DNA from: Flavisolibacter nicotianae | GTDB lineage: Bacteria > Bacteroidota > Bacteroidia > Chitinophagales > Chitinophagaceae | NCBI RefSeq assembly: GCF_003628535.1 | Contig: NZ_RBCI01000016.1 | Span: forward strand, 1 to 64,000 | Direction: 5' to 3' | Length of the DNA stretch: 64,000 nucleotides | Part shown: positions 59,044 to 64,000 of the stretch, one piece after another | Position numbering within the stretch: position 1 is the first letter of the stretch | Layout of the letters: each line of letters opens with the position of its first letter | Program-made: the position numbers and the translations under genes | The notes under the pieces: generated by a model | Seen by the model: the letters and a program-made list of their open reading frames with translations, nothing else | Told to the model about the DNA's origin: nothing | Database searches by the model: none

Positions 59044-59610
59044 ATGACAAAGAGCATTCGCAACCCCGGACTTTACCTTTTCAGAGGCATTGTATTACTT
59101 CTTCTCGGCGTGCTGGCCGTGCTGATGCCGGGGATCACTTTTGCCACGCTGGTATTTTTGTTTGGCGCTTACATGCTGGTGGATGGAATCTTTTATATCA
59201 TAAGAGCGATTGAGAGCCGCAGAACCACAAGTGGTTGGGGCTGGTACCTTTTTATGGGAATTGTTAGCGTTATTGCCGGCATTATTGCCTTTATTGATCC
59301 TTTTGCGGCAGGCACAGCATTGGTGTTTCTATTTGGCTTCTGGATCATGTTGGCAGGCATAGCGACCATTACAACAGCTATCAACCTGCGTAAATCAATC
59401 CGTGGCGAGGGGTGGTATATTGCTGCCGGTGTTATCACCGTTATTTTTTCGCTGCTGATCGTCTTCAATCCCCTGGCCGGTGCCATCACGCTGGCGTTGT
59501 TTTTTGGCTTCAATGCGCTTGCTAATGGCATCCTGCTGATTGTACTGGGCATTCGCTTAAAACGTCATAACAATCATGCGGAACACTTAGGGACCGGCGC
59601 TTTTGCCTAA
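59044..59610 (+). CDS. HdeD-family (DUF308) membrane protein
   Basis: 188 residues with six hydrophobic segments in three repeated hairpins (LFRGIVLLLLGVLAVLMPG, LVFLFGAYMLVDGIFYIIRAI, GWGWYLFMGIVSVIAGIIAFIDP). HdeD in E. coli is an inner-membrane acid-resistance protein. It is the first gene of a co-oriented series of stress genes running to 63 kb. Confidence 0.9.
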   Translation: MTKSIRNPGLYLFRGIVLLLLGVLAVLMPGITFATLVFLFGAYMLVDGIFYIIRAIESRRTTSGWGWYLFMGIVSVIAGIIAFIDPFAAGTALVFLFGFWIMLAGIATITTAINLRKSIRGEGWYIAAGVITVIFSLLIVFNPLAGAITLALFFGFNALANGILLIVLGIRLKRHNNHAEHLGTGAFA

Positions 59611-59657: not shown

Positions 59658-60200
59658 ATGGCAGCCGAAGAAATTACAGCAAGGGTCCTCACACTATCTA
59701 AATTGAAAGAGCTTTTTGTGGAGCAGTTACAGGATGTCTATTGGATAGAAATCAAACTGGTGCAGCTGCTGCGCCGGTTAAAGGAAACAGTCACGTCCGG
59801 GCAACTGGCAGATGCTTTCTCGGAACACCGGGAGGAAACAAAAGAACAGGTTCGGCGGCTGGAAGATATATTTGAAGGCATTGGTGAGCCGGTGGTTGCC
59901 TCCAAATGTACCGCTATGGAAGGCATCATGGATGAAGCCGATTATATCCTGTACACCACAGACGAAGGAAGTTCCCAAAGAGACGCCGGGCTTATTATCG
60001 CCATGCAAAAAGCCGAGCATTACGAGATGGCCATTTACAGAAGCCTGGTGCAACTTGCAGAAACACTCGGCTATGCGGAAGCTAAAATCGCATTGGAATT
60101 TACCCTTGGAGAAGAAAAAGCAGCCGATCGCCAGCTAACGCAGATTGCAAAATCAAGGATCTATGCCGCCGCCTTAAATGAAGAGAATAATGCCAATTAA
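59658..60200 (+). CDS. YciE/YciF-like ferritin-fold protein (DUF892)
   Basis: 180 residues, helical. Glutamate/histidine positions fit a di-iron four-helix bundle: LFVEQLQDVYWIEIKLVQLL, AFSEHREETKEQVRRLEDIFEGIGEPV, MQKAEHYEMAIYRSLVQLAETLG and LGEEKAADRQLTQIA. YciE/YciF proteins are general-stress proteins of unknown catalytic role. Neighbours HdeD-like and Hsp20 fit a stress regulon. Confidence 0.92.
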   Translation: MAAEEITARVLTLSKLKELFVEQLQDVYWIEIKLVQLLRRLKETVTSGQLADAFSEHREETKEQVRRLEDIFEGIGEPVVASKCTAMEGIMDEADYILYTTDEGSSQRDAGLIIAMQKAEHYEMAIYRSLVQLAETLGYAEAKIALEFTLGEEKAADRQLTQIAKSRIYAAALNEENNAN

Positions 60201-60235: not shown

Positions 60236-60340
60236 ATGTCACAACTCACCAGGTTTAACAGTTCCCCCTCTCTACGCTCGTTTTTTTAAAATTTTTGGGG
60301 TAATGATTTGCTCGAAGATGATTTCTTAAAAAGAACAAAG
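60236..60340 (+). pseudogene. N-terminal segment of hsp20, cut by an in-frame TAA
   Basis: From the ATG at 60236 the frame reads MSQLTRFNSSPSLRSFF, then TAA at 60287-60289, then NFWGNDLLEDDFLKRTK, and runs in the same frame into the alpha-crystallin domain. The text on both sides of the stop is typical of Bacteroidota Hsp20 N-termini, so the stop interrupts an otherwise intact gene. It lies in a T7-A4-T5-G4 tract. A single G-to-T change (GAA to TAA) would explain it. Confidence 0.7.
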
Positions 60341-60664
60341 ATGCCAGCGGTTAATGTAAAGGACAACGAAAAGAACTATGAAATCGAAGTGGCAGCCCCC
60401 GGCATGAAAAAAGAAGATTTCTCCATTACCGTGGACAGCCGGATCCTCACCATCAGCGCAGAGGTGAAGGAAGAAAAAGAAGTTAAGGAAGATAAGTATT
60501 CACGCAGGGAATTTGTTTTCGGTTCTTTCAGCCGCTCCTTTACCCTGCCGGAAAATGTTGAGGAAAACAACATCCAGGCAAACTATGAAAATGGTATCCT
60601 CAAAGTGGTGGTGCCGAAAGTGCAGGAAAAGTCACCCCAGAAAAAAACAATTGCGCTAAGTTGA
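60341..60664 (+). CDS. Hsp20/alpha-crystallin small heat shock protein (intact domain, N-terminus lost)
   Basis: 107 residues from the ATG at 60341, the first ATG after the in-frame stop at 60287 that is in this frame. The alpha-crystallin domain is complete: VNVKDNEKNYEIEVAAPGMKKEDFSITVDSRILTISAEVKEE, REFVFGSFSRSFTLPENVEENNIQANYENGILKVVVPKV, with a short C-terminal tail. It could still form dimers, but the N-terminal arm needed for large oligomers would be missing. A TTG start at 60308 is a less likely alternative. Confidence 0.8.
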   Translation: MPAVNVKDNEKNYEIEVAAPGMKKEDFSITVDSRILTISAEVKEEKEVKEDKYSRREFVFGSFSRSFTLPENVEENNIQANYENGILKVVVPKVQEKSPQKKTIALS

Positions 60665-60818
60665 GAGGGAAAACGGTGAGTTGCTCTGCATAAGCGGCAA
60701 GCTTTTGAAAAATCTTTTTGCATAAAAGAAACTTGCCTTCTTGTTGTGTCTGATTTATTTTAAAGACATTCTCAACCTCCCTGCGAAGACGTTATTCCTG
60801 ATTAATTAAATCGTGTTT

Positions 60819-61316
60819 ATGTTACAGAAAAATGAAACTGCACCGGATTTTCAATTATACGCTACACCGGATCAAACGTTTGCCTTGCATGAACTAAGGG
60901 GTAAAAATGTGATCCTGGCTTTTTACCCGGCCGACTGGAGCCCAGTATGCGGAGACCAGATGTCACTCTATAACGAGATGCTGAAAATTTTCAGAAAGTA
61001 CAATGCCGAGGTGGTGGGCATTTCCGTAGATGGCAAATGGTGCCATGCCGCTTACCGGCAGGCCCGGAATCTCCATTTTACCTTGCTTGCCGATTTTGAA
61101 CCGAAAGGAGAAGTCGCCAGGAAATACGGCGTCTATGATGAAAAGAATGGACAATGTGAACGGGCTTTGTTTGTGCTGGACGGCAATGGCATCATCCAGT
61201 GGAGTTATCTCTCCCCAGTTGGCATCAACCCGGGTGCAGACGGGATCCTGGAAGCATTAGAATCAATCACCCAAAAAAACAACGTATATGGCAGCGAAGT
61301 TAACACCGCCGGTTAA
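60819..61316 (+). CDS. Peroxiredoxin (AhpC/TSA family)
   Basis: 165 residues from the ATG at 60819 (a GTG two codons earlier is not preferred). Peroxidatic cysteine C44 sits in FYPADWSPVCGDQ. The fold text FQLYATPDQTFALHELRGKNVILAFYP and VDGKWCHAAYRQARNLHFTLLADFEPKGEVARKYGVYDE matches AhpE/BCP-like enzymes. A second cysteine (ENGQCERALFV) may resolve. It overlaps the next gene by 29 bp in a different frame, so translation is probably coupled. Confidence 0.92.
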   Translation: MLQKNETAPDFQLYATPDQTFALHELRGKNVILAFYPADWSPVCGDQMSLYNEMLKIFRKYNAEVVGISVDGKWCHAAYRQARNLHFTLLADFEPKGEVARKYGVYDEKNGQCERALFVLDGNGIIQWSYLSPVGINPGADGILEALESITQKNNVYGSEVNTAG

Positions 61317-61830
61317 TGAAAGAGATCACATTCAAGGTTCCTCTCATGCGCCTCTCGAACTGGTGGAATATGGCGATTACCAGTGTCCGCACTGTGGCGC
61401 CGCACATCCGGTTGTAAAGGCCATCGTAAAAAGATTTGGAAAGAATTTACGCTTTGTATTCAGGAATTTTCCTTTAGCGGAAGTGCACCAGTACGCAGAA
61501 GCGGCCGCTATGGCTGCGGAAGCAGCCGCCAGGCAGGGGATGTTCTGGCCAATGCATGACATGATCTATGAGCAACAATCCCGGTTGAATGTGGGGGCTT
61601 TATTAACATTCGCAGAAGAACTTGATCTCGATATGGTTGCTTTTGAGCACGACCTGACAAATCCCTCTGTTGCGCAAAAAGTAGAAGCAGATTTCGAGAG
61701 TGGCGTCCGGAGCGGGGTTAACGGAACGCCTTCATTCTTTATCAACGGCTTAAAGTACAATGGGGGTTATGATTATGATTCATTGGCCGGCACTTTAGAG
61801 AGTCTGATCAGTGAAAGACAACACAGATAG
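61288..61830 (+). CDS. DsbA-like thioredoxin-fold oxidoreductase
   Basis: 180 residues without a signal peptide. CPHC active site at residues 33-36 (LVEYGDYQCPHCGAAHPVV), RNFPLAEVHQYAEAAAMAAEAA, and the cis-proline segment GVNGTPSFFINGLKYNGGYD. It resembles cytosolic DsbA-like proteins and the domain attached to some NhaA antiporters. Overlap with the peroxiredoxin gene suggests it may reduce or recycle that enzyme. Confidence 0.9.
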   Translation: MAAKLTPPVNERDHIQGSSHAPLELVEYGDYQCPHCGAAHPVVKAIVKRFGKNLRFVFRNFPLAEVHQYAEAAAMAAEAAARQGMFWPMHDMIYEQQSRLNVGALLTFAEELDLDMVAFEHDLTNPSVAQKVEADFESGVRSGVNGTPSFFINGLKYNGGYDYDSLAGTLESLISERQHR

Positions 61831-62002: not shown

Positions 62003-63046
62003 ATGGAATATAAAATTCACCACCTGGACCTTGTTGAACCAGCAAACCAACAAGCGTTTTTTGAAGAAGAAGTGCAGAAAAAAATGCCGCTGCTACAAAA
62101 GATCCTGGATCATTACCCCAAAGAACTGGTAGTGGACATCTTTGCCAACAGGGAAGGGAACTACGATTACAACGTTACAGCGTCGCTGGACCTGAAAAGT
62201 AAAGAAATGGTGGTAAAGGAGAGAGGTTCCAAAGCCGTTATCGTTGTGAACAATGCCCTCGACAAATTGCGAACACTGATCAAAGAACAAATCCGCCTCG
62301 AACGCAGAGAACATTTGCGCAAACGAAAAGACAGGCTTCATTCGGTGGTAACCACAACGCCTTCCATCAAAGAGGCCATGAAAAAAGAAGACCGGGATGC
62401 CTTTACAACGCTGGTAAGAAAGAGTCTCCCCGAACTGGAGCAGTACATTAGAAGGCAGATTTCCCGAAAGCCAGAGCTGGTACGGCTTCTCAAAAAAAAC
62501 ATCATTTCTGTTAACGATATTGTGGATGAAGTGTATGTCGAATTTTATCATGAACTGAAGGCAGATGCAGATGCTGCTGAAAAAATGCCGCTTTGGATGT
62601 ATGTATTAGCCGACAGGGAAATCAACAGGCTTAATGAAAAATATGGAAAAGAATTCCGGGAGCACCTCAGCACAGAGCAGCTTTCCAAACAGGAATGGAA
62701 AGAAATGCAGGAGGAGCTGACAGCCAATGCTGATTTTATGCCTGTTCTGACGGAAGAACTGGACGATCAGTTCTATTCCCCGGGGTCGTTCGATCTTGTG
62801 GAGATCCTCTCAGATGCCGGCGCAGAAGAGGAAATTCATACCCTGGCAGAATCAGATGATGCCGATGTACAGCAATTGCTCCGCGACCTTCCGGAAGAGC
62901 AACTGTCCGTTTTTGAGCTGTACTACATTCACCATTTGGAAATTGAAGAAATAGCAAAGGCAAAAAAGATCCCGGTCGATAAAGTAATGAGGTGGATAAA
63001 GGAAGCCAGAGAAGCGTTGTTGCGTTCGTTCCGGCAGCATGCCTGA
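62003..63046 (+). CDS. HPF/RaiA-like domain fused to a sigma-70 family (ECF-like) sigma factor
   Basis: 347 residues. Residues 1-110 look like a ribosome hibernation factor domain: a helix with KMPLLQKILDHYPKELVVDIFANREGNYDYNVTASLDLKSKEMVVKERGSKAVIVVNNALDKLRTLIKEQIRLERREH follows the beta-alpha pattern of HPF/RaiA. Residues about 130-225 resemble sigma region 2 (VNDIVDEVYVEFYHELKAD), and 285-345 a region-4 helix-turn-helix (LLRDLPEEQLSVFELYYIHHLEIEEIAKAKKIPVDKVMRWIKEAREALL). It is the last gene of a stress cassette. The fusion is seen in sequence; joint control of ribosomes and transcription is inference. Confidence 0.75.
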   Translation: MEYKIHHLDLVEPANQQAFFEEEVQKKMPLLQKILDHYPKELVVDIFANREGNYDYNVTASLDLKSKEMVVKERGSKAVIVVNNALDKLRTLIKEQIRLERREHLRKRKDRLHSVVTTTPSIKEAMKKEDRDAFTTLVRKSLPELEQYIRRQISRKPELVRLLKKNIISVNDIVDEVYVEFYHELKADADAAEKMPLWMYVLADREINRLNEKYGKEFREHLSTEQLSKQEWKEMQEELTANADFMPVLTEELDDQFYSPGSFDLVEILSDAGAEEEIHTLAESDDADVQQLLRDLPEEQLSVFELYYIHHLEIEEIAKAKKIPVDKVMRWIKEAREALLRSFRQHA

Positions 63047-63130: not shown

Positions 63131-63691
63131 TTAAGGTTTTTCTTCCAGCATTTGGTTTAGGCGCTTCAATTCTTCCCCGGCTTCATACATTTTGGTGATG
63201 TCATGTATCAACACCAAAACAAGAGAAACCTTTCCCATGTCGTCCTTTACCGGAATAAAGAACCTCTCGGAGATCCTGTTTGAATTGAGCTCCCGGTGAA
63301 ATTCCAAATGAACTTTTTCCCCTTGCAGCGCATTCTGCATTGCATCCACGACGACAGGATCTTCCTGCAACTCCGGATAAAAATCGAACACATTTCTACC
63401 CTGGACTTCGTCTCTTTTCAATCCATACCTTTCCTCACTTCTTGTATTCCAACCGACACAACGGAAGTCCTTGTCAAAGGCGATGATGCAATTAACGCTG
63501 GCATCGAACAGCGTTTGCAAAAGGTCTTTGGTTTCCCGCAGCTCCAGTTCTCTTGTTTTTCTTTCTGTCACGTCTGCATATGTTACCAGGCATCCCTCGC
63601 CAAATTTCACACAGGTAATATGTGCCCAGGTGTGGAAGCCATCATAGTTGTACAGGCACTCATCCTGCCAGGGCTCACCTGTTTCAACCAC
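63131..63691 (-). CDS. PAS-domain sensor protein, distal part after an in-frame stop
   Basis: 186 residues from the ATG at 63691. The end of one PAS/PAC unit (LYNYDGFHTWAHITCVKFGEGCLVTYADVTERK) is followed by a full PAS domain (LRETKDLLQTLFDASVNCIIAFDKDFRCVGWNTRSEERYGLKRDEVQGRNVFDFYPEL, VLVLIHDITKMYEAG). The protein stops at LNQMLEEKP, exactly where a histidine-kinase linker normally begins, so the output domain is missing. The same frame continues upstream beyond a TAA at 63737-63739. Confidence 0.7.
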   Translation of the reverse strand: MVETGEPWQDECLYNYDGFHTWAHITCVKFGEGCLVTYADVTERKTRELELRETKDLLQTLFDASVNCIIAFDKDFRCVGWNTRSEERYGLKRDEVQGRNVFDFYPELQEDPVVVDAMQNALQGEKVHLEFHRELNSNRISERFFIPVKDDMGKVSLVLVLIHDITKMYEAGEELKRLNQMLEEKP

Positions 63692-63736
63692 TTTTGCATA
63701 ATGGTCAAATAATCCGGAAAGCCTCGCTCCAGGGAA

Positions 63737-64000
63737 TTACTGTACCATCTGTTTCCCCACCAGGTCCCATCGGTGCACGGATTCCGCAGCTTTGTTGTTA
63801 ACCAACAAATACTCCAGGTCCATGATTTTCCCTGCTGTATTCCGCACGGGTTTGAGTGCCATGATGCTGTTGCCGGCATTATCCAGTACCGATTTCAGCC
63901 AATCCATGCTTTCCGTCAGCTTTTCTTCCGCCACTACTTTTTCTGTGTTATCGAAAGCAACGGATAAGATTTCTACCGGCCGGCCACGTTCGTCGGACTT
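63737..64000 (-). pseudogene. PAS-domain sensor gene, proximal part (partial, ends at in-frame TAA)
   Basis: The frame is open to the window edge and reads DERGRPVEILSVAFDNTEKVVAEEKL (end of a PAS/PAC unit), then MDWLKSVLDNAGNSIMALKPVRNTAGKIMDLEYLLVNNKAAESVHRWDLVGKQMVQ followed by TAA at 63739-63737. After the stop the same frame continues FPGARLSGLFDHYAKVVETGEPWQDE into the next feature, as an uninterrupted PAS domain would. A single G-to-T change (GAA to TAA) would explain the break. Confidence 0.65.

Follow-up and report, generated by a model that had tools for sequence, protein, structure and literature searches.

The window analysed here is a stretch of 64,000 nucleotides from Flavisolibacter nicotianae (NCBI RefSeq assembly GCF_003628535.1, contig NZ_RBCI01000016.1, positions 1 to 64,000 of the forward strand). 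Near its end lies an open reading frame for a protein of 347 residues, present as described in a first-pass annotation, in which a domain resembling the ribosome hibernation factors HPF/RaiA is fused to a part resembling a sigma factor (Table 1). In the predicted structure, residues 1–104 take up an HPF/RaiA fold and residues ~116–347 a sigma2-linker-sigma4 fold. The N-terminal half has the beta-alpha-beta-beta-beta-alpha order by which HPF/RaiA proteins are recognised, and the C-terminal half has both domains, sigma2 and sigma4, expected of an extracytoplasmic function (ECF) sigma-70 factor.

By sequence alone, the window protein matched sigma region 4 (PF08281, E 3.4e-9) in a Pfam search and gave no match to HPF (PF02482). 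A Chordopox_G3 match at residues 13–87 (Pfam E 0.015, under the cut-off) was regarded as chance. Residues 117–347 scored 44.3 bits with the NCBIfam sigma70-ECF model (cut-off 42.9), compared with 38.5 bits for the whole protein. A profile of nine fused proteins matched ECF sigmas (SigW, E 4.5e-9) and also solved HPFs (6qbz, E 1.4e-4; 6s0x, E 4.2e-4); the solved HPFs were matched again when the profile was built from only the HPF parts of 11 members (6qbz, E 2.2e-4). Matches of single members to the Pfam S30AE model were borderline (two of nine fused proteins at E up to 1), and seven of the 11 isolated HPF parts matched it. Three members (L068, L202, L203) exceeded the Pfam gathering cut-off of PF02482. 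Two of these, L068 and L203, are distant homologues of the window protein in which both halves were recognised on one chain: L068 (genome G513) scored 34.6 bits for S30AE (cut-off 23.7), 25.5 for sigma region 2 (cut-off 24) and 34 for region 4 (cut-off 25.7), and L203 (G461) scored 24.6 for S30AE and 50.7 for sigma region 4, both over the Pfam cut-offs. A chance look-alike of HPF was thus ruled out by the profile, the fold and these distant homologues. The first-pass annotation had assigned the first ~110 residues to HPF/RaiA and the C-terminal part to sigma regions 2 and 4 with a helix-turn-helix; structural matches were found for both, and we regard the two-domain architecture, as modelled, as confirmed.

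HPF/RaiA factors bind to the 30S subunit at its decoding site; of features that could serve such binding, a basic last helix is all that is seen in the family. The HPF half belongs to a subfamily marked in alignments by a Y-x-K turn and a basic tail of the ERKDYxYKRK type, which is common to fused and stand-alone members; E100, R101 and R108 of this tail are invariant in a nine-row alignment. The window genome has two further HPF-family genes besides the fused one. Elsewhere, a stand-alone gene of the subfamily (ERKDYEYKRKR tail) directly adjoins a Lon protease gene (L223:3601-6425), and an open reading frame of the subfamily with 217 residues (L220:239-892) has a C-terminal half without a match to the sigma-like model.

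The same architecture was sought in relatives, as the first-pass annotation had proposed, and was found in other genomes. Among 148 related genomes seven matched, six of them over most of the protein (nine genes in total). Since the 17 other genomes listed from the genus gave no match to the window protein, the distribution of the fused gene is patchy. An order-wide search found the family in 17 of 396 genomes, of which 11 carry 15 fused genes and six have the sigma-like part as a separate gene; in three of these six the HPF part was likewise a separate match. The family was present in 11 of 395 genomes of a phylum sample. In a scan covering 84,980 species genomes, 141 relatives were confirmed and 80 loci kept; the scan relies on a linker motif, and relatives without the motif can be missed. 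The 80 loci kept of the 141 included eight fused genes in six loci, and a separate HPF gene in two loci. Ten hosts among these 80 were Chlorobiota, Sulfurivirga or Desulfobulbaceae and the others Bacteroidota, the named ones including Saprospiraceae, Flavobacteriaceae and Bacteroidales. The sigma-like gene thus occurs outside Bacteroidota in Sulfurivirga (L076, L085, L096, L145) and Desulfobulbaceae (L115, L116, L128, L129), and the rows of these hosts that are present in the tree nest among Bacteroidota and Chlorobiota rows, which suggests horizontal transfer. Spread on plasmids was considered and rejected, as a tblastn search with the window protein found nothing at E 0.01 among 72,556 plasmid records.

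In a tree built from 90 rows of the sigma part, fused rows stood on several deep branches around sigma-only clades; the tree has a midpoint root and a weakly supported backbone and does not fix the ancestral state of the fusion. For this tree, domains below 150 residues and near-copies were removed from 111 rows, and L065:14007 was dropped as an ordinary ECF. The ratio dN/dS was 0.06–0.18 for both halves in the three of six pairs with usable dS, the other three being saturated. Both halves of the fused protein are under purifying selection in relatives. Many relatives carry the linker motif DGDGDLVMxEELDDISYH, and the sigma-like family appears to form a branch of sigma-like proteins not described before, with an acidic linker as its signature.

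The two halves also occur as separate genes in one cluster. At L053, L136 and L142 (the last on the same contig as L052), yfdX, the sigma-like gene, hdeD and HPF follow one another in this order on the same strand; in genome G176, yfdX, hdeD and HPF are together (L055) and the sigma-like gene is on another contig (L054). A profile of the HPF subfamily was run over 41 genome entries bearing the sigma-like gene (35 of the 80 motif-scan loci and six G entries) and found a gene in 13, or about 12 of 38 genomes, as G430/L142, G203/L092 and G197/L124 seem to be entered twice. In three of the 13 entries the match lay within an additional, diverged HPF-sigma fusion (L217-L219). That an HPF gene lies beside every sigma-only gene was rejected: the family HPF model detected a separate one at just two (L136 and L142) of the 80 loci kept. 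A model from the two other HPFs of the window genome added L131, L132 and L051, with the HPF gene some kilobases off. Two loci (L045:7867-11547 and L046:6485-10423) hold two fused paralogues in tandem around a YfdX gene, adjoined by FtsH. The diverged fusions lie in a same-strand row of YfdX, YfdX, fusion, DnaJ and a CbpM-like gene (L217:3157-7533, L218:3738-8051, L219:3696-8011), and their genomes additionally hold a separate sigma-like gene.

In the window, the fused gene is the last of a same-strand row that begins with a DUF308 membrane protein, presumably HdeD-like, and a DUF892 protein, which we take to be of the ferritin-like YciF type, and continues with HSP20, an AhpC/TSA peroxiredoxin and a DsbA-like protein. 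When stretches of 5.6 to 19 kb around 20 fused genes were inspected, 17 had at least one of HSP20, DnaJ, FtsH, thioredoxin, YfdX, ClpB and a small CbpM-like gene, several of the 20 being close kin and not independent cases; the stretches of L048, L057 and L202 had none of these. The count omits five loci that share contigs with L045-L047, L060 and L058, namely L070, L071, L073, L080 and L082. The small gene beside DnaJ has no Pfam match, and CbpM-like is our presumption. As a yardstick, the window genome gave eight HSP20 matches over its 6.09 Mb, two of which adjoin each other, and from this the chance of an HSP20 gene in any 16 kb is ~2%. The stress neighbours that the first-pass annotation had pointed to are therefore a recurring feature. 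Two distant fusions are directly adjoined by a Thioredoxin 2-type gene with a zinc ribbon (L068:7095-7553, L203:4565-5065). In the window, sensor-like open reading frames, PAS/histidine-kinase-like by eye, follow the fused gene on the opposite strand (63131-64000).

Table 1. Features of the fused gene and of the genes upstream of it.
Feature	Position	Strand	Evidence or remark
Fused HPF/sigma-like protein, 347 residues	62003..63046	+	Open reading frame present as earlier described
HPF/RaiA-like domain, residues 1-104	62003..62314	+	beta2-6, alpha14-34, beta43-51, beta55-63, beta68-75, alpha from 78
Basic tail of last HPF helix, residues 99-114 (ERRxxxRKRK in the window)	62297..62344	+	Alignments
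Sigma region 2-like helical domain, residues ~131-226	62393..62680	+	
Sigma2-sigma4 linker with the most conserved motif of the family, residues ~229-259	62687..62779	+	
Sigma region 4-like domain with helix-turn-helix, residues 288-347	62864..63043	+	PF08281 E 3.4e-9, fold
DUF308 membrane protein	59044..59610	+	PF03729 E 2.6e-33
DUF892 protein	59658..60200	+	PF05974 E 6.8e-46
HSP20 small heat-shock protein, start codon uncertain	60308..60664	+	PF00011 E 2.5e-24
AhpC/TSA peroxiredoxin	60813..61316	+	PF00578 E 6.3e-34
DsbA-like thioredoxin-fold protein	61288..61830	+	PF13462 E 2.7e-26

We compared the segments that contact promoter DNA in the family with those of the 19 ECF sigmas of the window genome. 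Region 2.3-2.4 carried no net positive charge in 41 of 53 family rows, versus one of the 19 ECFs, and it was likewise neutral or negative in 26 of 33 rows chosen independently of the linker motif. The mean net charge of the 16 residues from the region 2.3 tryptophan was -1.13 for the family and +2.16 for the ECFs (p 7e-8), and that of the 22 residues of region 4.2 was +0.94 and +3.16 (p 5e-5), p-values that are too small because the rows are mutually related. Conservation of the linker, 0.72 in the 55-row alignment A3, was circular there, the rows having been picked by a motif inside it. In the 33 rows not selected by the motif it fell to 0.55, which still exceeded the sigma part (0.37) and the helix-turn-helix (0.42). 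The order was inverted in a control ECF family (28 of 30 rows kept, rows with stops removed), where the linker was lowest (0.48), the whole 0.71 and the helix-turn-helix 0.85; the control is less diverged, and only the order of regions is compared. Promoter recognition is doubtful for the family, judging by the low charge of region 2.3-2.4 and a helix-turn-helix less conserved than the linker, and overall, selection appears to protect the linker more strongly than it protects promoter reading. The proposal of the first-pass annotation that the protein redirects RNA polymerase as an ordinary sigma factor fits poorly with these results.

We tentatively favour, at somewhat below even confidence, the explanation that the fused protein is a sigma mimic tied to idle ribosomes, rather than a promoter-specific sigma factor. 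We infer that its HPF domain docks on idle ribosomes and that its sigma-like module uses the sigma fold to engage either core RNA polymerase or a sigma regulator; the promoter-DNA contacts would be weakened and the acidic linker kept. Such a mimic might silence, park or re-allot RNA polymerase once ribosomes become idle under heat or redox stress. The folds, the Pfam matches on one chain, purifying selection, the split cluster, the presence of the HPF subfamily in 13 of the 41 genome entries with the sigma-like gene, the stress neighbours, the low charge and the inverted conservation are the support for this explanation. A bolder form of it, which we consider rather unlikely, is a dual hibernation factor from heat and redox stress islands, with ribosomes silenced by HPF and RNA polymerase by a sigma mimic poor in DNA contacts. 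Sigma region 3.2 enters the active-site cleft of the polymerase, and by analogy the linker could lie in this cleft. A dual factor would place the conserved acidic linker at this position; other lineages would have its halves as separate clustered genes, and Flavobacteriaceae would have the polymerase half alone.

Several points weigh against a sigma mimic of this kind. The window protein has a charge of 0 in region 2.3-2.4 and of +3 to +4, that is basic, in region 4.2; its linker motif is degenerate, so that it may differ from the family, and L068, L203 and, at L045 and L046, the second paralogues lack the motif. Net charge is only a rough indicator of DNA binding. In region 2.2 the family differs from the usual D..QE, with D at the first site in 36 of 53 rows, D in place of Q in 45 and E in only 18; as these sites are presumably those touching beta-prime, polymerase binding of the sigma-like part may be altered as well. 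The compact arrangement of sigma2 and sigma4 comes from predicted models, for which no inter-domain error is given. PF02482 was matched at E <=0.01 in three of the 55 rows of A3, 11 of which have an HPF part. The Flavobacteriaceae genomes among the 41 entries had no gene of the HPF subfamily, and therefore the sigma-like half does not need HPF there.

The best placed of the alternatives, possible if unlikely, is a true ECF-type alternative sigma factor whose fused HPF domain is regulatory: ribosome binding would hold or release it, and idle ribosomes would switch on the neighbouring genes. The fold of sigma2 and sigma4 is complete, the sigma70-ECF model matches 52 of the 55 rows of A3 (E <=0.01), regions 2 and 4 of L068 both exceed their cut-offs, and ECFs with N-terminal extensions are known (PMC8103513). 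The neutral or acidic region 2.3-2.4 of most rows and the order of conservation argue against it for the family. For the window protein, with its basic region 4.2 and degenerate linker motif, it is the least disfavoured.

The C-terminal domain of long HPF serves in dimerisation or ribosome holding. If the sigma-like part were a similar appendix, the protein would be a hibernation factor only, with no role in transcription. The weakened DNA contacts would suit this reading, and HibA (PMC13324472) is a precedent for HPF joined to a second module, a CBS module, but 28 of the 41 genome entries have the sigma-like part and no gene of the HPF subfamily, and we consider this reading improbable. Still less probable is a mimic of the PhyR type, which would bind an anti-sigma factor and thereby free another sigma factor: the Pfam matches of the window protein, taken to E 10, include no receiver, and the sigma-like part is joined to HPF instead. 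A gene for the cognate anti-sigma factor is common, though not universal, near ECF sigma genes. An assembly artefact or chance resemblance is hardly credible, for although the window protein alone gives no HPF match by sequence, the same architecture with strong folds recurs across further assemblies and in distant lineages.

Studies of ribosome hibernation have mostly been kept apart from those of transcriptional responses to stress. A conserved hibernation fold joined to a sigma fold near proteostasis genes is a testable candidate for a link from idle ribosomes to RNA polymerase, and the arrangement could tie the arrest of protein synthesis to transcription. The first-pass annotation knew of no such protein, and we likewise found no description of HPF joined to a sigma domain in the titles and displayed abstracts of papers returned by searches of the open-licence PMC literature for such a fusion; a search of PMC11102965 for terms of RNA polymerase hibernation was likewise negative.

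The surroundings of the fused genes resemble the transmissible locus of stress tolerance (tLST) of Proteobacteria, in that sHSP20, FtsH, thioredoxin, YfdX, HdeD and a Clp disaggregase recur. They differ in that the available part of the tLST source (PMC8290217) names no HPF or sigma-like gene, and the clusters here also hold DnaJ with a small partner gene. The set of the tLST and the locus of heat resistance (LHR), taken as sHSP20, Clp disaggregase, YfdX, HdeD, thioredoxin and FtsH together, was present as subsets only, none of the 20 stretches having all six. Compared with short HPF/RaiA (YfiA, protein Y; PF02482), the HPF half forms its own subfamily and is joined to a sigma-like module. The nearest precedent for HPF fused to another module is the archaeal hibernation factor HibA, whose second module is CBS and not sigma-like (PMC13324472). 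In comparison with the sigma-like domain of PhyR, HPF stands in place of the receiver. ECFs with fused extensions are known (PMC8999054 and PMC8103513), and the family shares with group 4 sigma-70 factors (SigW, RpoE, AlgU) the sigma2 and sigma4 fold and the profile matches. Unlike these, it has less basic promoter-contact segments, a linker that is its most conserved part, and an HPF domain in front.
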